21,558 nt of DNA from a virus, in IMG/VR virus record IMGVR_UViG_3300033145_000141, positions 1 to 21,558 of that record; one strand, given 5' to 3'. Below, piece by piece: positions 4,800 through 21,558 of this stretch. A program made the position numbers and the translations under genes. Position 1 is the first letter of the stretch. Each line of letters opens with the position of its first letter. The notes under the pieces are model-generated. The model was not told where the DNA came from, searched no databases, and worked only from the letters and a program-made list of their open reading frames with translations.

Positions 4800-7115
4800 A
4801 TGGGTTCTGATTCTCGTCGGATATGTTATTTGAAGTCTGCCCAGAGCTTTGGCGCAACTGTTATGGAGTCTCTTAAAGATATACATGGTATGATAACTCG
4901 CAAGTACAAGATGGGTGTTGCGCATATATTCCCTACTAACGATGAAGTTGGCGACTATAGCAAGTCTGTTTTTAAGCCTTTAATAGCTTCTAATAAGATT
5001 TCTATTGGCAGGTATGTTAAGAATGTCTCTGGTGGAACTGACACTACTGCACTAAAGAATGTCAATGGTGCGATGTTATATCTTCGTGGCGCAAGGTTAA
5101 GTCAGAAGGTTGGCGATTCAGCAGAGAGTACCAGTTCTAAGACTTCTGGTTTTTCGGTAGACAAGGTAGTCTTTGACGAAGTTGATTTTATGGACACTGA
5201 CGTAATTGAAAAGTACAAAGGCCGCATGGGAATGAGTCCTCACAAGCACGAAGTTTATTTAGGTAATCCATCTCACGAGGACTTTGGTATTGACCTTATT
5301 TTCAAGTGTGTTACACCCGACACTAAAATACTTACAGCCGATTTAAGATGGAAGCAGGCAAGTGAATTGTGCACCGGCGATAAGTTGGTTGGTTTTGATG
5401 AATATCATAAAAAGGGCAGCAAGACCAGAAGATATGATATATCCACAATAACTGGATGTGGTAGGGTGAGTTTGCCTTGCTCAAAATTAACACTTGACGA
5501 CGGAACATCGGTTACTGTAAGCAAAAAGCATAAATGGTTAGTTTCGTGGAATAGCAATGTAACTTGGAAGTGTACCGATAAGTTAAAAATCGGGGACAAA
5601 ATCTTATCTATTGGGACATGGGAAGAAAAAGATTCTTATGAATATGGCTGGTTGGGCGGAGTATTAGATGGTGAAGGTTGTATTTCATTGCAGACAAGAA
5701 GTGGCGGAAACCAACGACTAATCTATTTTACAGTAGCACAAAATGAAGGTGTCGTGATTGAGAAAACAAAGTTCTTGTTAGATAAATTAAATATACCTTA
5801 TAGTTGTAATAGCCATATTGATAAAAGGTCTGATAAGAAACATGTTTCTTTGTTTATTAAAGGTGGTATGCCAGTTAGATTAAGACTGCTTGGCCTTACT
5901 CGTCCTTGTCGTTTACTGGAAAAAACAGATTTATATCTGAAAAATGTATCTGTTGGTAACGATGGTGGATGTACAAAAACTCCCAAGATTACAAAAATAG
6001 AAGATGTTGGCGTAAAAGAGGTTGTTGCATTAGGAACAGATAAGAAAACATTTATAGCCAATGGATTGTTGTCACACAATTCGTCTGACCAGCGATATTG
6101 GTTTAGGAAATGTAGTTGTGGTCATTGGACTTGTGCCGAGAAGAGTTTTCCGCAGTGTGTGAAGATACGACCTGACGGTACTGGTTATGTAGGGTGTGAT
6201 AAATGTGGCAAGGAAGTTCATGTATGGGCTGGTGAGGGTACTGGCGAGTGGGTTCCCGACTTTCCAGATAAGTCTAAGTATATGCACGGGTACATGGCAA
6301 GTCAGTTAATGACATCATTTAACGACCCTGCCGAGATTTTAGAAGACTTGGTTAATCCACCGTATGGTAATCTTGGTGATTTCTGGCGGTTACGCATGGG
6401 GCGACCTTATTCTGATAAGAGCGAGAAGTTAAGAAAAAGTGACGTTCTTATGTGTTGTGGTAACGATGGGCTATCAACAAAACATCCTGGCCCATGTGCA
6501 ATGGGAGTTGACGTTGGCAAGATTAAGCATGTAGTAATCGGCATGAAGATGCCAAAAGGCAGATACGAAATACTCCGCGCAATAAAGATACCAGAGGGAA
6601 GAGAAGGCTGGAACCAAATCTCCGACCTTGCCCTAAAGTACAATGTAAAGAGTACTGTTATTGATATAAGACCTTACGAAGATGAGGCGAGGGCGTATCA
6701 AACAAAACATTGCGGTGGCAGTATAAATCCTTCTGTGTTTCTGTGTGAGTATAGCGATACACAGGTTACAGATTCAGCTTTTAACAATAACACCGGAGTA
6801 GTAAAGGCTCATCGCACTGGTATATTCGACCAGACCCATAGACTACTTTCGATGGGCGAGATAATTCTACCTAGACAATGTCCTGAGATTGAAGAGTTTG
6901 CCAGACAGTGTTGTAATTGTGCAAGATTTGAAGAAAAAGACAAAAGAAAAGGCACGATAGTAAACAGATACCGACCGACCGGCGACCGTCAGGAGCATTT
7001 CAGAAACGCATTGAACTATATGATTTTAGCGTGTAGTGGTCATCGTGTTGGCACGGTTTCAAGATATAAAGTACAGACTTATGCGGAAGTAGATAACGAA
7101 TACACAAGATATTAG
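4800..7115 (+). CDS. terL: Terminase large subunit (gpA-type) containing an intein
   Basis: This is the ATP-driven packaging motor and nuclease. Counting from ATG 4800: deviant gpA-type Walker A KSAQSFGAT (12-20), Walker B VVFDEVD (123-129), an intein at 170-427, then the extein resumes with SSDQRYWF and a zinc-finger-like region (CSCGHWTC, CDKC). The RuvC-like nuclease follows with GVDVG, VIDIRP and GDRQEHFRNALNYM (likely catalytic Asp/His). Without the intein the extein is 513 residues, slightly short, because conserved N-terminal sequence (EYSVKGFEYQIEP) lies upstream in the same frame without a start codon and the probable initiator is in another frame at 4670. The protein may therefore begin upstream by frameshift, or be made from 4800 and lack about 40 residues. 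Confidence 0.85.
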   Translation: MGSDSRRICYLKSAQSFGATVMESLKDIHGMITRKYKMGVAHIFPTNDEVGDYSKSVFKPLIASNKISIGRYVKNVSGGTDTTALKNVNGAMLYLRGARLSQKVGDSAESTSSKTSGFSVDKVVFDEVDFMDTDVIEKYKGRMGMSPHKHEVYLGNPSHEDFGIDLIFKCVTPDTKILTADLRWKQASELCTGDKLVGFDEYHKKGSKTRRYDISTITGCGRVSLPCSKLTLDDGTSVTVSKKHKWLVSWNSNVTWKCTDKLKIGDKILSIGTWEEKDSYEYGWLGGVLDGEGCISLQTRSGGNQRLIYFTVAQNEGVVIEKTKFLLDKLNIPYSCNSHIDKRSDKKHVSLFIKGGMPVRLRLLGLTRPCRLLEKTDLYLKNVSVGNDGGCTKTPKITKIEDVGVKEVVALGTDKKTFIANGLLSHNSSDQRYWFRKCSCGHWTCAEKSFPQCVKIRPDGTGYVGCDKCGKEVHVWAGEGTGEWVPDFPDKSKYMHGYMASQLMTSFNDPAEILEDLVNPPYGNLGDFWRLRMGRPYSDKSEKLRKSDVLMCCGNDGLSTKHPGPCAMGVDVGKIKHVVIGMKMPKGRYEILRAIKIPEGREGWNQISDLALKYNVKSTVIDIRPYEDEARAYQTKHCGGSINPSVFLCEYSDTQVTDSAFNNNTGVVKAHRTGIFDQTHRLLSMGEIILPRQCPEIEEFARQCCNCARFEEKDKRKGTIVNRYRPTGDRQEHFRNALNYMILACSGHRVGTVSRYKVQTYAEVDNEYTRY
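5307..6080 (+). mobile_element. Intein (258 residues) with LAGLIDADG-like endonuclease in the large terminase
   Basis: In frame within the terminase. It begins with Cys1 in CVTPDTKIL (block A). Block B is GTSVTVSKKHKWLV (intein residues 66-79) with the His of the usual TxxH motif, Thr being Ser here. A LAGLIDADG-like motif WLGGVLDGEGC (115-125) marks a homing endonuclease insert of roughly 110 residues. The C-terminal splicing part ends VVALGTDKKTFIANGLLSHN (blocks F and G), with penultimate His and terminal Asn, followed by Ser+1 of the extein. All splicing residues are present, so it should be active. Removal joins ...DLIFK to SSDQRYWF, rebuilding a conserved terminase segment. Only one LAGLIDADG motif is evident, so the nuclease may act as a dimer or be degenerate. 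Confidence 0.92.
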
Positions 7116-13771: not shown

Positions 13772-14122
13772 ATGGCAGATATAGTTGTAACAGCACTTAC
13801 TATAACTCAAGCTCCGCTTGCAAGAGCTTATTGGGCCGTAAATGCTACAGAGACCGACTCGGCATCTAATTCAGAAGTCAAAGCCGCTGTAACCGGCAAG
13901 AGTTTGTATGTAACAAAATTAGTTATAAACTGTGCTGTTGCCCAGACGGTGGTACTCAATGATTCTACTACGGCATTGCTTGGCCCATACACTTTTCTTG
14001 CTGCTGGTGGAACGATTGTATCTATAGATTTTACGAGACCAATTAAATTAACAGTCAGTCAGGCTCTTAATGTAACTGCTGGCGGTGCGTACGCTTTGTA
14101 TGTAGAAGGTTTTACAGCATAA
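13772..14122 (+). CDS. Hypothetical beta-rich structural protein
   Basis: This 116-residue protein starts MADIVVTALTITQAPLARAY. It appears to be an all-beta fold (SLYVTKLVINCAVAQTVVLN, GGTIVSIDF, PIKLTVSQALNVTAGG), the pattern of small beta-sandwich proteins that decorate capsids or fibres. AAGGAGAT lies just upstream. No family recognised; the virion role is inferred from fold impression and position. Confidence 0.6.
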   Translation: MADIVVTALTITQAPLARAYWAVNATETDSASNSEVKAAVTGKSLYVTKLVINCAVAQTVVLNDSTTALLGPYTFLAAGGTIVSIDFTRPIKLTVSQALNVTAGGAYALYVEGFTA

Positions 14123-14132
14123 GGAGTAAATC

Positions 14133-14324
14133 ATGGCAGAAATTGAAGAAGAAGTAATTTTCTGTACTAAACCAGATGCTATTGAGTTTAAGACAAGGAC
14201 AAATGGAGATACTTTGTTTATCCACAAACTTCACTTGACTCAGGCTCAAGCTACGTCTCTTGCATGGTTAGTAAATGCAGATGGTAATGCGGAATTAGAA
14301 TTTCAAGTTAAGGTGAAACACTAA
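14133..14324 (+). CDS. Small hypothetical protein
   Basis: This 63-residue acidic protein starts MAEIEEEVIFCTKPDAIEFK, with likely beta strands and one helix (LTQAQATSLAWLVNA). AAGGAG precedes the ATG, and its TAA overlaps the ATG of the adaptor gene (TAATG), so it is probably coupled to it. Function unknown. Confidence 0.6.
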   Translation: MAEIEEEVIFCTKPDAIEFKTRTNGDTLFIHKLHLTQAQATSLAWLVNADGNAELEFQVKVKH

Positions 14325-15247
14325 TGGCACTTACATCGGCAGAAGTTGATATATGTAACAAGTCACTGGATAAGATAGGTGCAACGTCATTTACATTTGG
14401 TGATGTGACAAGCAATGAAAGTATTAAGTGTTTACGTCACTTCGACCAGACAAGAGATTCACTATTGCGCAGTTACGAATGGCCATTTGCTAAAACAAGA
14501 TTAAGACTTGTAAGTGGATGGCTGACAGATACTATTTACACTACTGACCAATATGTATGGCAGAGTGCGTTACTTTACAAATGTGCTACTGCCCATACAT
14601 CAGACGTTTTTGCTACAGACCTCGCTGCCGTTAAGTGGGTATTGGTCTCTACGGTGGATGACTGGGCGACTGCAACAGACTACGCATTGGGTGAAACGGT
14701 AGTGAATGATGCTGTATTGTATCAGTGTATCTTAACTCATACATCGGGCGATACAGACGATGAGCCTGGCACTGGTGCGACATGGGAGACATATTGGATA
14801 GTTACTACGACCAAGCCTACGAATGTGTTCGGGTACAGTTACGACATACCTGCAAACTCTTTAAGGCTTATCGAGAACCAAACGATAAATACAAGCAATG
14901 TAAACTGGAACTGGTACGGTTCGTACACTTATCCACGCTCAAACAAACCAGCAGACACATGGGTTCTTGAGACAAATACTATTCTGACAAACGATACAGA
15001 AGTTGATATTGTGTATATTGATACCATAGACACTACAACCAAATGGGATGCGTTATTTATGGAACTTTTTATTGCCTTACTTGCCAAGAAACTACTCTCT
15101 TTAGCAGGTTTTGGCCAAGGTACGGCTTCGCTAAGAGAAGATTTGAAAGAAGAAATTAAAGAACTAACCAAAGAGGCAAATTCAGTTGGAAGTCAAGAAG
15201 GAAATAACTCAGGTAGTTCCGATTGGAATAACAGCAGGTATTATTGA
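14324..15247 (+). CDS. Tail adaptor protein (tubular protein A / gp11-like) with inserted CBM-like modules
   Basis: This 307-residue protein has the typical adaptor start: VDICNKSLDKIGATSFTFGD then CLRHFDQTRDSLLRSYEWPF (about residues 36-55), where the family has 'c...yd..rd.lLr..pWnFA'. The C-terminal part (VDIVYIDTIDTTTKWDALFM and a helix with ELFIALLAKKL) also fits. Adaptors of this kind form a ring under the portal and join the nozzle. Between residues about 65 and 160 lie two related modules with aromatic and W-Y patterns (GWLTDTIYTTDQYVWQSALL; DDWATATDYALGETVVNDAV) that resemble carbohydrate-binding type 5/12 folds. They account for its length above the usual 190-220. Its 3' end overlaps the HNH gene by 7 bases. 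Confidence 0.82.
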   Translation: MALTSAEVDICNKSLDKIGATSFTFGDVTSNESIKCLRHFDQTRDSLLRSYEWPFAKTRLRLVSGWLTDTIYTTDQYVWQSALLYKCATAHTSDVFATDLAAVKWVLVSTVDDWATATDYALGETVVNDAVLYQCILTHTSGDTDDEPGTGATWETYWIVTTTKPTNVFGYSYDIPANSLRLIENQTINTSNVNWNWYGSYTYPRSNKPADTWVLETNTILTNDTEVDIVYIDTIDTTTKWDALFMELFIALLAKKLLSLAGFGQGTASLREDLKEEIKELTKEANSVGSQEGNNSGSSDWNNSRYY

Positions 15248-15735
15248 GATAACTTATTATGTATAACAGTATGGCAACTACAACAAACCGGTTCAACATC
15301 AAGGACGTGTTTTTCTTCATATCCGAGATGGTGATGGTATCTGTCTGCCTGTTTATCGCAATAAGTACACTTGAACTCAGTAGCGGGTCTCATATTGCCT
15401 TTTTTTATTGCGATATTTACCTTGTTCTTGGCATGAGTCTTTTCTGGGTATTGATTATGGTAGGCTTTTTTCTGTTCGCAAAGTTTAATTCGGTGTCTTT
15501 TTCTATAAGCAATACTTGTTTTCTTGACTATTTTCTTGCCATGTTCACTCTTGTTATACTTTTTAATTCTGGCTTTTGCCTTTGGGGTATTGACATATTT
15601 TCTTTTGTAATCTCTATCGCAAATTTTGCAGTATGTTTGATAGCCATCTTTGCGTTTAATGTTTTTATAAAACTCAGTCAATGGTTTGGTTTTCTTGCAG
15701 ATACAGCATTTTTTGGTTTTAATTTTATCAAACAT
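15241..15735 (-). CDS. HNH homing-type endonuclease, antisense in the late region
   Basis: This 164-residue protein (from ATG 15735, AAGGG seven bases upstream) is on the minus strand among rightward genes. Its N-terminal zinc finger (CCICKKTKPLTEFY, then CKIC) leads into a Lys/Arg-rich DNA-binding helix region. A C-terminal HNH nuclease carries CTYC, YHHHLGY and PVCCSCHTVIH. This layout is common in free-standing phage endonucleases that spread by cutting alleles lacking them. A longer frame starts at 15777, but only 15735 has an SD. It has its own promoter candidate. It lies in the gap between the adaptor gene and the Pro-rich protein gene and breaks no visible gene. Confidence 0.88.
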   Translation of the reverse strand: MFDKIKTKKCCICKKTKPLTEFYKNIKRKDGYQTYCKICDRDYKRKYVNTPKAKARIKKYNKSEHGKKIVKKTSIAYRKRHRIKLCEQKKAYHNQYPEKTHAKNKVNIAIKKGNMRPATEFKCTYCDKQADRYHHHLGYEEKHVLDVEPVCCSCHTVIHNKLSQ

Positions 15736-15802
15736 AGTTTTTCCCTTATTCAAAAATCCGTGTTTAGGGTCATACAAGCCCGATTCTTGGGCAGTTCGTT
15801 AC

Positions 15803-15831
15803 ATTGTAGCAGATTGATTGGAATATAGCAA
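15803..15831 (-). promoter_or_regulatory. Promoter of the HNH endonuclease gene
   Basis: On the minus strand TTGCTA (15826-15831), 17 bases, TACAAT (15803-15808) form a good sigma70-type promoter, with a start about 60 bases before the HNH ATG. The leader holds a GCCC/GGGC hairpin (15776-15790 region), away from the SD. Confidence 0.55.
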
Positions 15832-15861
15832 TAAAAATTAAAATAATTGTGAGGATAAATT

Positions 15862-16059
15862 ATGGGCGGTCTATTTGGTGGTAAACCAAAAGAAGTAAAA
15901 CCGCCTCCTGTTCCTGACCCACCTCCTGTTCCGGTGGTCAGTGATGAGGCGGAAGAGTTTGCAATAAGAGAACAACAGAAAAGGTCTGGTGCAAGTAAGG
16001 CGTTTCTTGTCGGTAATCTGACACCAAAATCTACTGGACGCAAAAAAACATTAGGTTGA
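15862..16059 (+). CDS. Conserved Pro-rich small phage protein
   Basis: This 65-residue protein has the opening MGGLFGGKPKEVKPPPVPDP, a Pro/Val-rich linker, a short helix (EEFAIREQQKRSG) and the end GRKKTLG. Similar small proteins with a Pro-rich N-terminus, a basic helix and a final 'G.kTLlG' are found next to neck and tail genes in many podoviruses; the role is unknown. GAGG precedes ATG 15862. Its 3' end is followed within a few bases by the SD of the next gene. Confidence 0.7.
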   Translation: MGGLFGGKPKEVKPPPVPDPPPVPVVSDEAEEFAIREQQKRSGASKAFLVGNLTPKSTGRKKTLG

Positions 16060-16076
16060 TTTTAAGGAGAGAGCAA

Positions 16077-16499
16077 ATAGCAAACGAAATCTACCATAGC
16101 TACGAAGAAGGGAACACTCTCTATGCTCTGATATGGCGAGCGTCTGACGATAAGGTATGGAACAATACCGATAGCACATGGGATACCTATACGGATACCG
16201 ATATAGATAAATACGACGTTGTATTAGCGAATCAGGTTGACAGTGATTATTATTCCGTTGACTTTCCTGCTGCCATAACAAGCACAACTCAACAGACGTA
16301 CAGGGTACAGATAATGTATCAGGCAGGTGCTATTGACGCTGACGACGATATAGCCATTGCGCAAGGTGAGATATTCTGGAATGGCGTAAGTGAGATAACG
16401 CTTGGAACAATAAACATAACGAATACAACGGTCAATAATTCCTACGACGAAACATTAACTCCGGGTGTTTCAGTAATTGACGAAACGATAAGAGTATGA
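16077..16499 (+). CDS. Hypothetical tail-region protein, apparent ATA start
   Basis: This 140-residue protein (ANEIYHSYEEGNTLYALIWR as first residues after the start) resembles a class of phage proteins beginning 'ma..iy..y..G.tLYa.i....d..vWn'. These are probably beta-sandwich proteins linked to fibres or neck. The frame is open from TTG 16056, but AAGGAGAG at 16064-16071 sits ideally before ATA 16077 and would itself encode residues of the longer form (LRRE). I therefore place the start at ATA, a rare initiator, or a mutated ATG. If TTG 16056 is used, the protein is seven residues longer. The stop overlaps the next start (ATGA). Confidence 0.65.
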   Translation: MANEIYHSYEEGNTLYALIWRASDDKVWNNTDSTWDTYTDTDIDKYDVVLANQVDSDYYSVDFPAAITSTTQQTYRVQIMYQAGAIDADDDIAIAQGEIFWNGVSEITLGTINITNTTVNNSYDETLTPGVSVIDETIRV

Positions 16500-16690
16500 G
16501 CAAACTAGCGATTGTAAATTTTAATTCAGGTGCGGTAACACCAGGGGTCGATGCTCGTTCTGATATTGAGAAGTATGTAAGTGGATGCAGACAACTGGAT
16601 AATATGATTCCTGATGTATTTGGTAATGCTACTAAAAGACCTGGTACTGAACTTATTGTAATTAGTAATGCTGATGGAACATACTCATGA
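16496..16690 (+). CDS. Nozzle N-terminal fragment, copy 1
   Basis: This 64-residue protein begins MSKLAIVNFNSGAVTPGVDA and continues with EKYVSGCRQLDNMIPDVFGN and KRPGTELIVI. This is exactly the N-terminus of T7-gp12/tubular-protein-B-type nozzles ('.nFs.GelsP.l.aR.Dl.kY..gc...eN.ip...G...rRpGt.fv'). It stops at TGA 16688-16690 instead of going on into the nozzle body. ATG overlaps the stop of the upstream gene, and its own stop overlaps the ATG of copy 2. It may be a functional separate chain or a relic of duplication. Confidence 0.75.
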   Translation: MSKLAIVNFNSGAVTPGVDARSDIEKYVSGCRQLDNMIPDVFGNATKRPGTELIVISNADGTYS

Positions 16691-16817
16691 AAACAGCAAT
16701 AATAAATTTTAACGGCGGTCAATTCACTCCAAAGATAGATGCCAGGGTAGACACGGAAAAATATGTAAGTGGATGCAGACAACTGGATAATATGATTCCT
16801 GATGTATTTGGTAATGC
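16574..16817 (+). repeat. Pair of 56-bp identical direct repeats in the nozzle N-terminal copies
   Basis: Bases 16574-16629 and 16762-16817 are identical (188 bp apart), coding YVSGCRQLDNMIPDVFGN in both copies. The flanks before the repeat have drifted strongly in base and protein sequence, and the flanks after it by a few substitutions. The identical core inside diverged flanks suggests recent exchange between the copies. Confidence 0.95.
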
Positions 16818-16908
16818 CACGAAAAGACCTGGAACTGAACTTATATCGCTTGCTTCGAGCGCTTATGGTATTGGCTATTATGGAGTAGGTAATTATGGAG
16901 GTACTTAG
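16687..16908 (+). CDS. Nozzle N-terminal fragment, copy 2, with Gly/Tyr tail
   Basis: This 73-residue paralogue of copy 1 starts MKTAIINFNGGQFTPKIDAR, followed by EKYVSGCRQLDNMIPDVFGN and KRPGTELISL. It ends in a tail AYGIGYYGVGNYGGT not found in copy 1. It stops at TAG 16906-16908, where a normal nozzle would go on to the 'MVPFKYS' block that is here found at 18584. GGAGG inside its last codons serves the next small frame. Either it pairs non-covalently with the nozzle body encoded 1.7 kb downstream, or it is a leftover. Confidence 0.75.
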   Translation: MKTAIINFNGGQFTPKIDARVDTEKYVSGCRQLDNMIPDVFGNATKRPGTELISLASSAYGIGYYGVGNYGGT

Positions 16909-16910
16909 AT

Positions 16911-17003
16911 TTGAATTTTAACAGAACTGATTTCAATAGCGATGGGATAGTTAATTTTATAGATTACGCTTATACGTTAAAAGGTGATAGAAATGGCAAA
17001 TGA
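16911..17003 (+). CDS. Dockerin/EF-hand-type calcium-loop peptide
   Basis: TTG 16911, preceded nine bases upstream by GGAGG (16897-16901), opens a 30-residue frame whose centre reads RTDFNSDGIVNFIDYAYTLK. DFNSDGIVNFID fits the 12-residue EF-hand/dockerin loop exactly: D1, N3, D5, G6, V8, N9, D12. One such loop is half of a dockerin, so it may be incomplete. Its end overlaps the spike start at 16993. The start lies two bases after the stop of nozzle copy 2, so coupling or a -1 shift from that gene is possible. The wording 'DGIVNF.D.A' is typical of Planctomycetota proteins (from memory). Confidence 0.55.
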   Translation: MNFNRTDFNSDGIVNFIDYAYTLKGDRNGK

Positions 17004-18558
17004 AATACCAGTACAAGGCAATAACTTTAATACTTGGGGAACGGATTTAAACAATTATCTCCGAAAAGGGCAAGGTTGGATTGATGTTAGAGCTTATGGT
17101 GCTAAAGGTGATGGCTCAACTGATGACACTGAAGCTATACAAGATGCCATTGATGCAGCAGAAGCGGCGAATGGGACTGTGTTTTTGCCAGCGGGAACGT
17201 ATTTGGTTTCAGGCGATACCGATTCAGTTAGTGCTGCTCTTAATATAAGAGGTAATAGCACTGGCTTTATTGGTGCTGGTTCTGCTGTAACTACCATAAA
17301 ATTACATGACACTCAAGCCAACGACGCCCCGATAGTTCTTGAAGTAGGTGATACGGCTTCTGGCAATATCGCAACGGCGTACACAAACATTATTGTTGGT
17401 GGTATTACATTTGACGGCAACAAAGGAACAGTTTCAAAAAAGGCTAGTGATATTTATGGATGGGGCATGATTACAACAAAAATAAGTTATTCTTATTTTT
17501 ATGATATAGCTGCTGTCGATTGCCATCAAGGCGGATTTGGGACTGTTATAGATTCAAATTACAATACAGGTGTAGGTTTCTATATCGAAGATTGTGGAAA
17601 CTCGGTACAGGGAACCGCTGGATGGGAGATGAACAGTTCTAAGTATTCATCTTATACAGGAATAACTACTAAAGATTGTTATTTGGGTCTTAAAGTCTTG
17701 GACAATTGCTGGAATAATTATTTTCAAGGTTCTGCATATAACGCAACATCGCAAGGACTTGTTTATCAAAATCAATCTGTAAACGAAAGCTATAGCAATA
17801 TTTTCGATATATCAGTATTTGATGGTTGCACTGATAACGGAGCATCTATTTCGGTAAATTGCAGAAACTCCACTTTAAACTTGAACATTCAAGACGTTAC
17901 TGGAAGAGGATTTCATGTAGTTGGAAACGCAACGGCTGCTAATGTCCCGTCTGGTAATATTATAAATTTAACTACAAGGAATTGCGGGAAGATGGGATTA
18001 CTTCTTGATGGTAATTATAATTTTATTAACCACACATCTATAACAGATGGTTTAACCGGAGTTCAAGGTGCGAGTTATGCAGTAGATATAGGTGCTAATT
18101 ATGCTGCCACAGGCAATAAACTTAATGTCATAGTCCAGGACTCTAGTACTTGGCAAGTTAGAGGTATTTCTGTAAGGGCAGGTGCGATTGATAATGAAAT
18201 TTTATCATATTACTATCTGAACACAGCAGACCCATATACCGATATTGGTATAAGAACGAAGTTTAATCATGGCTCTGGCATTGGTTCTGATATAGCGAGT
18301 TCAGCAACTATTGAGATACCGCTTTTCGGTAGCATGTTTACAGTAACCGGAACGGCTGACATCACAACAATAACCTCCGGAAACAAAAATAAGGGTAGAA
18401 CTATCTCATTGCTGTTTTCAGGAACAAAAGCAACTAACGGACTCGTGGATGGGAATAATCTCAAAATAGCAGGGACATTAGCTTACACTCCAGACGACAC
18501 AATCAATCTTATTTCTAATGGAACGAATTGGTATGAAACATCAAGAAGTGTGAATTAG
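16993..18558 (+). CDS. Tailspike, pectate-lyase-fold (beta-helix)
   Basis: This is a 521-residue protein. A short N-terminal part (MANEIPVQGNNFNTWGTDLN) that may bind the tail is followed by the pectate-lyase-superfamily signature DVRAYGAKGDGSTDDTEAIQ (about residues 32-51) and GTVFLPAGTYLV (about 62-73). Repetitive strands rich in Asn, Gly, Thr and Ser, as in right-handed beta-helix spikes, follow. The C-terminal about 100 residues look like a separate beta domain (IEIPLFGSMFTVTGTADITT), as in trimerisation or carbohydrate-binding tips. Such proteins bind or cut surface polysaccharides. ATG 16993 has AAGGTG six bases upstream; a GTG at 16984 is in frame but lies inside that region. It sits between nozzle fragment 2 and the nozzle body. 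Confidence 0.85.
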   Translation: MANEIPVQGNNFNTWGTDLNNYLRKGQGWIDVRAYGAKGDGSTDDTEAIQDAIDAAEAANGTVFLPAGTYLVSGDTDSVSAALNIRGNSTGFIGAGSAVTTIKLHDTQANDAPIVLEVGDTASGNIATAYTNIIVGGITFDGNKGTVSKKASDIYGWGMITTKISYSYFYDIAAVDCHQGGFGTVIDSNYNTGVGFYIEDCGNSVQGTAGWEMNSSKYSSYTGITTKDCYLGLKVLDNCWNNYFQGSAYNATSQGLVYQNQSVNESYSNIFDISVFDGCTDNGASISVNCRNSTLNLNIQDVTGRGFHVVGNATAANVPSGNIINLTTRNCGKMGLLLDGNYNFINHTSITDGLTGVQGASYAVDIGANYAATGNKLNVIVQDSSTWQVRGISVRAGAIDNEILSYYYLNTADPYTDIGIRTKFNHGSGIGSDIASSATIEIPLFGSMFTVTGTADITTITSGNKNKGRTISLLFSGTKATNGLVDGNNLKIAGTLAYTPDDTINLISNGTNWYETSRSVN

Positions 18559-18583
18559 TATAGTATAAACGAAAGTCGCAATT

Positions 18584-20713
18584 ATGGCAACAAGAATGGT
18601 TCCCTTTAAATATTCGTCCACAATAGCATATTCAATAGAGATGGGAAATCTCTACATGAGTTTCTATTATGATGGAGCATTACTTGACGGGGACGGTGCG
18701 CCGATAGAGACACCATACCTTGAAGCAGACTTACCAGAACTAGACTATGAGCAAATCGGCGATACGATATGGATTACTCACAATGACTATAAACCGAGAA
18801 AACTAACTCGCACGACTACTACCACTTTTTCGCTTGATGTTATAACATTTACAAAAGGCCCGTTCTTAGTCAGAAATGACATTGCAGAAGACGACGATGT
18901 TACTATGAAGTACACCGGAACTTTAACGGCAGATGCAGTGGGAACGCTTACTTGTTCGGCTGCCCATTTTGAATCTGGCCATGTTGATGCGCTGTATCAA
19001 TTAACCCATCCAAGAAGTCTTACAGATGCCAAAATATCTGATACCGGAGATAATTGGGGTGGTGGCGATTTAGATACTGATGGAAGCGATGCGTTGGATG
19101 TTAAGGGAAACTGGTCGTTTAATACTCACGGGACATGGACAGGAACGGTCAGGATATTAAGAAAACAGGGAAGTAATAACTATGAAACCTTTCGGACATT
19201 CATATCAGACAACGACCGTAATGTACAATACTCTGGAACAGAGCGAGAATATAACGTTAAGCTAAAATTCATAACCGAATCCGGCATGAACGCTGCATTT
19301 GGTGCGGATATTACCGCTAATACAAGCACTACAGTAGGTATCGTCCGTATAGACTCTATCACAAGCACCACAGTTGCCGTCTGTACCGTTCTTTCCTTAA
19401 TAGGGGGAACAAGTGCCGATACGACTTTAAGGTGGGCAGAGGGAGCGTGGAGCGGCGTACAGGGCTATCCTAAGGGCGTAGGGTTCTTTGCCGACAGATG
19501 CCTATATGGTGGTAGGCGGTCTGGCTGGCAGAGTAAGGTTGGTGACTATGAGAATTTCGATACAGGACTATTCGATAATGATGCGTTCACAATATCGCTT
19601 ACCACTGGTAACGAGATAATGTGGGTTGATACTGTAGATAAAACTATCGTATATGGCACTACTGGAAACCCTTGGACATTACAGAGCAACAAGGTTGGAA
19701 CGGTACTTACTCCGAAAAACTTCACAATAGATGAACAATCCGGCCTTGGTTCTGCGAATATTCAATGCGTAAAGATAAACAATGCTCTTATCTATATCGA
19801 TTTCAACCAGAAGAAACTAATGGAGTATGGATATAATACAGAACAGCAAAAGTATGTTTCTAACGAGATTACCGTACTAGCAGAACACTTCACTGCAACA
19901 TCTACAATTACATGGCTTGCATGGCAGAAGAATCCAGAATCTATTATCTGGTTTGGTATGACAGACGGTACACTTCATTCTTTTACTTACCAAAGAGACC
20001 AGAACGTATTAGCTTATGCCCCACACCCAACAACTGGAAATGTTAGGTCTGGATGTGTTATACCTGGCACTTACGAGGATGAGGTTTGGCTATCGGTCGA
20101 AAGAGATATAGGTGGCGAAACAGATGTAAACTGTATTGAGAGAATGAATCCAAGACGACTGACCGATGAAGATGATGCCCACTTTGTTGACTGTGGTGTA
20201 TTTTATGACGGCGTTGCAACGACAAGTATTACAGGACTTGACCACCACGAAGGTGAAACGGTAGCTATTCTTGCTGATGGCGCGGTTGTAACGCCACAAG
20301 TCGTGGTAAGTGGAGCAATAACTTTAACAACTGCTGCGTCAAAGGTTCATGCCGGACTACCGTTTACTCCGTACCTTAAACCAATGAGACTTGATAACGA
20401 AACTAATAGGGGTTCATCGCATGGAACTATTAAAAATATTCCAGAATTGGTATTAAGCGTACTTGACTCTGACAATATAAGAACCGGCAACATATCTACT
20501 AATATGCACAACATTGATTTAACAAGACCAGACCTTAAAAACAACAGCGAGATTGACGGATTGTTTACTGGCGATATACCAGTTTCGCAAGACGGCGGGT
20601 ATAGTATTGAGGACAGTATTTTAATATCAAGTAGCCAGACAGGTGGTGTAACAGACCCGACACCATTAACGGTGCGGGCGATTGTGGCAAGAATAAATGA
20701 GACGGGAAGATGA
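18584..20713 (+). CDS. Nozzle (tubular protein B / gp12-like) body lacking its usual N-terminus
   Basis: This 709-residue protein begins MATRMVPFKYSSTIAYSIEM, a block that in full nozzles follows the 'RRPGT.fv' segment at about residue 60-90. Conserved nozzle blocks follow: YLEADLPELDYEQIGDTIWI, THNDYKPRKL, and GYPKGVGFFADRCLYGG then SKVGDYENFD (about 300-333). Nozzles form the hexameric tail tube below the adaptor. The missing N-terminus is present twice, as separate frames, at 16496 and 16687. No in-frame extension is possible because TAA 18566 closes the frame. The SD is weak (GAAAG). Fragment 2 plus this body totals about 780 residues, a normal size. The stop overlaps the next ATG. Confidence 0.85.
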   Translation: MATRMVPFKYSSTIAYSIEMGNLYMSFYYDGALLDGDGAPIETPYLEADLPELDYEQIGDTIWITHNDYKPRKLTRTTTTTFSLDVITFTKGPFLVRNDIAEDDDVTMKYTGTLTADAVGTLTCSAAHFESGHVDALYQLTHPRSLTDAKISDTGDNWGGGDLDTDGSDALDVKGNWSFNTHGTWTGTVRILRKQGSNNYETFRTFISDNDRNVQYSGTEREYNVKLKFITESGMNAAFGADITANTSTTVGIVRIDSITSTTVAVCTVLSLIGGTSADTTLRWAEGAWSGVQGYPKGVGFFADRCLYGGRRSGWQSKVGDYENFDTGLFDNDAFTISLTTGNEIMWVDTVDKTIVYGTTGNPWTLQSNKVGTVLTPKNFTIDEQSGLGSANIQCVKINNALIYIDFNQKKLMEYGYNTEQQKYVSNEITVLAEHFTATSTITWLAWQKNPESIIWFGMTDGTLHSFTYQRDQNVLAYAPHPTTGNVRSGCVIPGTYEDEVWLSVERDIGGETDVNCIERMNPRRLTDEDDAHFVDCGVFYDGVATTSITGLDHHEGETVAILADGAVVTPQVVVSGAITLTTAASKVHAGLPFTPYLKPMRLDNETNRGSSHGTIKNIPELVLSVLDSDNIRTGNISTNMHNIDLTRPDLKNNSEIDGLFTGDIPVSQDGGYSIEDSILISSSQTGGVTDPTPLTVRAIVARINETGR

Positions 20714-21141
20714 TAGAATATCGTAAAGCGACTCAATCCGATTTAGATTATGTTAAGCAAAATCCATTTGAGGGTGCTATTAAGAATTATCAATATATGG
20801 AAGTGCCGGATGATAATACTTATACCGTTATATACGAAGGTCAGATAGTAGCCGTAGGCGGCCTACAAGTTCGCTGGAAAGGCACAGGGCTGTTATGGTT
20901 GATATTAACCGCTAATAGTAAAAAGGACGGCATACACGGACTAAGGGCGTTGTGTGCTATACAGAGCAAGGTGGACGAGTTAATAAAAAAGAACAATGTT
21001 TGGCGGGCAGAGGCAATGGTGCGAGTTGACTTTCCAAAGGCAATTAAAATGCTAGAGTTTTTAGGCTTTAAAAGGGAAGGTATTATGAAGGATTGTTTTC
21101 CAGATAGAAGCAATGGATATTTATACGCAAAGGTGATATAG
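20710..21141 (+). CDS. GNAT-fold protein (virion-cluster type)
   Basis: This 143-residue protein has a GNAT (N-acetyltransferase) outline: MIEYRKATQSDLDYVKQNPF as N-terminal strand and helix, YTVIYEGQIVAVGGLQVRW as the central strands, and a C-terminal FPKAIKMLEFLGFKREGIMK ('a...le.lGF...g....') typical of GNATs. The acetyl-CoA loop (Q/R-x-x-G-x-G/A) is not clear; LWLILTANSKKDGIHGLRA may correspond to it. Comparable proteins lie between nozzle and internal-virion genes in T7-like and BPP-1-like phages, where they are thought to help virion assembly. The ATG overlaps the nozzle stop (ATGA). Confidence 0.72.
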   Translation: MIEYRKATQSDLDYVKQNPFEGAIKNYQYMEVPDDNTYTVIYEGQIVAVGGLQVRWKGTGLLWLILTANSKKDGIHGLRALCAIQSKVDELIKKNNVWRAEAMVRVDFPKAIKMLEFLGFKREGIMKDCFPDRSNGYLYAKVI

Positions 21142-21558
21142 ATGAGTGGTTTATTTGAACAATTAAGCGGCGCGCAGGGCTTGAGAGTTGAGGGTAAATC
21201 CGCGCAGAATATAGCTAATTATAACGCCGAGGTTGCTGAACAGCAGGCAAAATCTGAGAAGATTCGTTCTGGTTTCGACCAGATGCAGCAAGCAAAAGAA
21301 GCTGAAAGAATCAAAGGTAGATTGCAAGCTGGCATTGGCGCAGCAGGTGGTGCTGGAAGCCCTGTAGCGATTGACCTTAATCTTGAACAGGCCAGAGAAC
21401 TTGAACTAGAGAATCTTTTAATTGGCTATGAGGGTGAAGTTAAAGCACAGAGATTACAGAACCAAGCTACATTAGACCGACTTCAAGGTCAACTCGCAAG
21501 GCAATCTAGTAAAAGTGCGGCAAGGCGTGCGAATATAGGATTTGGTATGCAATTGGCG
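21142..21558 (+). CDS. Internal virion protein (gp14-like), N-terminal part
   Basis: A frame opens at ATG 21142, just after the GNAT stop, with AAAGGTG upstream, and runs off the right edge (139 codons present). It starts MSGLFEQLSGAQGLRVEGKS, then shows long Ala/Gln/Glu-rich helices (NIANYNAEVAEQQAKSEKIR), a glycine-rich hinge QAGIGAAGGAGSPVAID and more helix (ENLLIGYEGEVKAQR). This layout is usual for the internal core or ejection proteins that follow the nozzle in podoviruses; they leave the head with the DNA and help it cross the cell envelope. Confidence 0.75.
   Translation, partial: MSGLFEQLSGAQGLRVEGKSAQNIANYNAEVAEQQAKSEKIRSGFDQMQQAKEAERIKGRLQAGIGAAGGAGSPVAIDLNLEQARELELENLLIGYEGEVKAQRLQNQATLDRLQGQLARQSSKSAARRANIGFGMQLA

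Follow-up and report, generated by a model that had tools for sequence, protein, structure and literature searches.

The tail nozzle encoded by this virus is probably a working split nozzle, in which the N-terminal module (NTM) and the body of the protein are made as separate chains. In the window, by which we mean the whole stretch of DNA that was analysed (21,558 bp, an entire IMG/VR record), the N-terminal segment is encoded twice, in separate ORFs located 1.7-1.9 kb 5' of the body. The features of the locus are:

16056..16499, + strand: gene directly 5' of NTM copy 1, with homologues directly 5' of the nozzle or NTM in the related loci L001, L003, L039, L114 and others
16496..16690, + strand: NTM copy 1, a free nozzle N-terminal module of 64 aa (phrog_376, E=4.8e-11, positions 7-56)
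16574..16629 (= 16762-16817), + strand: 56-nt run shared by both copies, by sequence identity
16687..16908, + strand: NTM copy 2, a nozzle N-terminal module with a 17-aa tail (phrog_376, E=1.5e-11, positions 10-59)
16911..17003, + strand: putative peptide of 30 aa whose loop is dockerin/EF-hand-like (Dockerin_1, E=0.041, under the cut-off)
16993..18558, + strand: tailspike-like protein of 521 aa with a pectate-lyase-type beta-helix (PF12708, E=2.6e-18)
18584..20713, + strand: nozzle body without the N-terminal module, 709 aa (phrog_376 65-709, E=3.8e-145)

The reading frames that the initial annotation had reported for the two short products, the spike and the body (16496-16690, 16687-16908, 16984/16993-18558 and 18584-20713) were confirmed, and each ends in a stop codon. 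ATGA overlaps connect the upstream gene to copy 1 and copy 1 to copy 2; the product of the upstream gene matched no Pfam or PHROG family above cut-off. The gene order adaptor, nozzle, acetyltransferase is present, as it is in the related loci L007 and L008, with a phrog_394 tail protein at 14324-15247 and a GNAT match at 20710-21141. The adaptor-like tail protein contains a CBM_5_12 carbohydrate-binding module (E=2.6e-7, above cut-off), and the L020 adaptor shows similar sequence. Between the adaptor and nozzle genes lies a minus-strand ORF of 178 aa (15241-15777) that appears HNH-endonuclease-like by eye and has only a weak Stc1 match in Pfam.

The protein starting at 18584 had been described as a nozzle body that begins at the block usually following the N-terminus, and both the PHROG search, in which the match covers all but the first 64 and last few of 712 family positions, and comparison with single-chain relatives bear this out. 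It also matches the nozzle structure 8ck1_A from chain residue 71 onward (E=2.7e-63). With respect to phrog_376, the family of T7 gp12-like nozzles, the window protein thus has the homology of the body but does not carry the N-terminal segment in the same chain. NTM and body in one ORF is a common arrangement among the relatives and is found in the solved nozzles 8ck1_A (Carin1) and 9efk_M (LME-1); the predicted model of one intact relative, L027, aligns over nearly its full length with the Carin1 nozzle (Z 34.6) and with T7 gp12 (Z about 21). The window shares with the T7-like nozzles (Cobetia phage Carin1, 8ck1; phage LME-1, 9efk; T7, 6r21) the family over both body and NTM as well as the gene neighbourhood, with the adaptor before and the acetyltransferase after. 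Whereas the known members are one chain, however, the NTM of the window is detached and duplicated, and NTMs of its relatives are fused to adhesins. The split nozzle is in this sense a variant of a known protein. Other departures from the standard body were also seen, including a single-chain nozzle of 1167 aa (L010, 6001-9501) into which ~300 residues, LamG-like by eye, are inserted in frame at body position 543, and a second break near body residue 310-315 in L055, L076 and L177 as well as L045, L048 and L052, where the following chain often has a grafted domain.

The two short frames had been read as neighbouring parts of one family. Instead, both match the same N-terminal part of phrog_376 (approximately positions 7-59), which makes them copies of one NTM rather than serial pieces. 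Their DNA is 79% identical over 155 nt and only 66% identical outside the perfect 56-nt run, a run length reached in 0 of 100,000 shuffles; this disparity suggests recent gene conversion between the copies, which we consider probable. The 17-aa tail of copy 2 contains YGxGxYGxGxYGG repeats, and the same repeat is found in body grafts of L018 and L020. The closest parallel to the layout is in L114, where a 64-aa NTM, equal in length to copy 1 and with the same overlapping junctions and a similar tail (SNEDGTYD* in copy 1 versus SNADGTYS*), is followed by an overlapping NTM fused to GLUG and then by the body. The order in the window matches, with the slot of copy 2 holding the NTM+GLUG protein in L114 and an NTM with a short tail, the dockerin-like peptide and a separate spike in the window.

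The same split recurs among relatives. We scanned IMG/VR with a nozzle alignment and, since 19 aligned free NTMs varied too much to be searched with as a pattern, with a degenerate DNA pattern written by hand to represent the NTM core, and removed duplicate loci; a single-protein scan of viral contigs with NTM copy 2 gave no confirmed relatives. The census yielded 37 distinct free NTM sequences in 28 IMG/VR contigs, nine of which have two copies, and a tenth two-NTM contig (L139) has its second NTM at the contig edge. Relatives divided in the same manner, which the initial annotation had suggested looking for, do exist: 21 further IMG/VR contigs, along with a MAG binned as Phycisphaerae, have the break in the same linker of roughly 12 residues. 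These counts exclude L120, and L105 is claimed neither way. In a tree of bodies from 112 loci, all 22 split bodies, including that of the window, fall in one clade (read without support values) together with nine single-chain members, which indicates that the split is not obligatory. Two free NTMs are present in every member of the window's own subclade (6/6: L029, L038, L039, L114, L146 and the window). L120 was considered as a split nozzle and rejected, as its additional NTM, joined to a long stretch of cargo, precedes a nozzle that is intact; this locus lies far from the split clade in the body tree. Three-chain splits occur in L055, L076 and L177; in the last, a GTDB genome contig binned as Phycisphaerae, three overlapping ORFs encode the NTM, the first half of the body, and GLUG with the second half of the body. 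This MAG also gives the sole hint at a host, which would belong to the Planctomycetota.

The position of the break is consistent across these loci. In 105 fused nozzles, the linker from the RRxG motif of the NTM to the start of the body has a mode of 12 residues; free NTMs without cargo end 8-15 residues past RRxG, and homology in detached bodies resumes at an R-x-x-PF motif (R-[MLIT]-[VIM]-PF). The linker also accepts in-frame insertions in some single-chain nozzles (e.g. L047), and the detached bodies of many relatives carry N-terminal grafts of about 110-650 residues. A gene of 125-137 aa is found repeatedly near the NTM and nozzle genes, though not always in the same position (L039, 7734-8147, with similar ORFs in L029, L038, L030, L031, L101, L128 and L139).

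Many NTMs of the relatives carry additional domains. These include a Gp80 (GP4 fibre I) domain in L033 (E=2.9e-41), which PHROGs places in a head-protein family, a LamG-type lectin in L028 and GLUG repeats in L030, while fusion to GLUG in L038 and L146 has below-threshold or structural support. The model of the NTM+GLUG protein of L146 is a beta-solenoid resembling IgA-protease solenoids. In L029, L038 and L039, NTMs are fused to short CYENN-type repeats, and in L029 an NTM is part of a 923-aa protein with a GLUG motif. L033 shares the Gp80 domain with the podophage GP4 fibre I protein gp80 (PF23140; PDB 8jou) but differs in having a nozzle NTM joined to it. Podovirus tailspikes and depolymerases likewise have small conserved N-terminal modules that attach variable binding proteins to the tail, but these anchors constitute a separate docking fold, whereas in the split clade part of the nozzle serves as the anchor, probably a part that complements the strands of the barrel.

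These fusions bear on an earlier proposal that the nozzle fragment helps to attach adhesins, which holds for the relatives in that their NTMs are physically joined to cargo but does not extend directly to the window, where the spike has no NTM. The assignment of a pectate-lyase-type fold to this spike is supported by the Pfam match listed above; its ATG start at 16993 gives the 521-aa product, a GTG start at 16984 is also possible, and PHROG matches point to a tail spike (phrog_2234, E=1.7e-11) and a tail fiber (phrog_33904, E=1.3e-9). Pfam and PHROG searches revealed no NTM within the ORF and no separate tail-anchoring domain beyond the partial PHROG matches. The calcium-loop peptide suggested earlier exists as a reading frame, with a TTG start 2 nt after the stop of copy 2, a GGAGG at 16897-16901 (9 nt before the start) and an overlap with the start of the spike. 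Its identity is weaker: the match scores 14.5 bits against a cut-off of 22.9, and it has one loop where a type I dockerin requires two, with no similar sequence among the related loci. Copy 2 and the spike are in the same reading frame; a single broken ORF comprising copy 2, the peptide and the spike was rejected, given several stops between copy 2 and the spike and the position of the peptide in another frame.

Copy 2 occupies the slot of the adhesin-fused NTMs of relatives and is followed by the peptide and a separate spike, an arrangement from which one may speculate that copy 2 docks the spike. A competing account, which we regard as quite plausible if somewhat short of an even chance, is that the spike cassette is an ordinary spike-gene insertion beside the nozzle with no mechanical link to copy 2. 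That the spike sits in its own ORF without an NTM, and that no homologues were found in the phage collection and no confirmed relatives among the IMG/VR viral contigs scanned, would be expected of such an insertion. Conversely, most split relatives have genes resembling fibres or adhesins in this interval, and L114 has an NTM-adhesin fusion at the position syntenic with copy 2.

In T7, the 45-residue N-terminus of gp12 contributes three strands to the C-terminal platform barrel, adjoining the adaptor, and the authors of that structure noted that these strands look like a circular permutation (PMC6702177). We hypothesize that, in the window and its split relatives, the NTM (about 55 aa) and the body are made as separate chains, broken in the linker just behind the NTM, and that the free NTM most likely binds to the body without a covalent link, completing in trans the ring of the platform beneath the adaptor. 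After duplication of the NTM gene, the bare copy 1 probably meets this structural need, while copy 2 sits in the slot that bears adhesin-fused NTMs in relatives. Some of the six sites on the platform would then be taken by cargo-bearing NTMs, whose binding domains would be displayed there, with the C-terminus of the NTM, to which cargo attaches, facing outward near the split linker. Structure prediction gave low confidence for the NTM region itself (pLDDT below 50 over residues 1-35 in L027 and 1-65 in a cargo protein, both from shallow alignments), so that the T7 study is the basis for locating it in the platform. A multi-chain model also faces a stoichiometric difficulty, as there are two different NTMs but six equivalent sites.

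Alternatively, the body may assemble alone and the free NTMs may only anchor accessory fibres or spikes. The cargo fusions fit this idea, as does L120, whose cargo-fused NTM beside an apparently intact nozzle indicates that an NTM can exist as an extra anchor. However, no split genome in which the body is visible lacks an NTM, and in many (L018-L026) the only NTM is a bare one of 58-62 aa without cargo, for which a role as adhesin anchor is hard to argue. We consider a purely anchoring function unlikely. More generally, the nozzle of this clade might act as a modular display scaffold. Several interchangeable NTMs with differing cargo would vie for the six sites of the platform, so that tails become mosaic, and exchange or conversion of a strand-complementing clip of 55 residues would swap one adhesin for another; we hold this extension at close to an even chance.

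The initial annotation had left open whether the nozzle works as two chains or the gene is broken. Among the free NTMs of L018-L026 and L116, dN/dS is mostly 0.04-0.17, with many synonymous distances saturated; it is 0.115 between copy 1 and its L114 counterpart and 0.247 between copies 1 and 2. These values (about 0.04-0.25) point to purifying selection on the free NTMs. A gene broken by insertion or recombination, its short frames being decaying remnants or assembly errors, might be suspected from the small size of the ORFs, the odd dockerin-like stretch in a different frame and the reliance on one metagenomic contig. Against this stand the purifying selection on the free NTMs, the recurrence of the split in the 21 other IMG/VR contigs and a GenBank MAG, the NTM of identical length and overlaps in L114, and the clean 709-aa body in the window, so that a broken gene is largely refuted by the comparative sequence evidence and in our estimate very improbable. 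Recurrence, selection and synteny instead make the two-chain nozzle well supported at the level of sequence.

Also very improbable is that NTM and body are joined into one chain after transcription or translation, by an intron, an intein, a ribosomal hop or a frameshift. In favour of such joining, the terminase of the same genome (ORF 4800-7115) contains an insert resembling an intein, whose matches to Intein_splicing (E=1.2e-5) and LAGLIDADG_3 (E=0.022) fall short of the curated cut-offs. Against it, the earlier argument against RNA splicing is reinforced by the lack of any Rfam match at E<=0.5 in 14000-21558, where group I or group II intron catalytic RNA would have been expected, and at gathering scores in eight related loci; the intervals of relatives contain several complete genes and span up to 3.4 kb, the NTM is duplicated, and NTMs and body N-termini bear unrelated grafts.

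Split nozzles were not described in the open-access papers searched. Short-tailed phages eject their DNA through the nozzle, which acts as the gate, and all solved nozzles used here are single-chain. If the present reading is correct, a multi-chain nozzle that reuses one of its segments as a clip would represent a new route for attaching receptor-binding proteins, and naturally split nozzles would make the circular-permutation idea raised for T7 directly testable. More broadly, many short ORFs left as 'hypothetical' next to podovirus nozzles may encode structural components missed in annotation.
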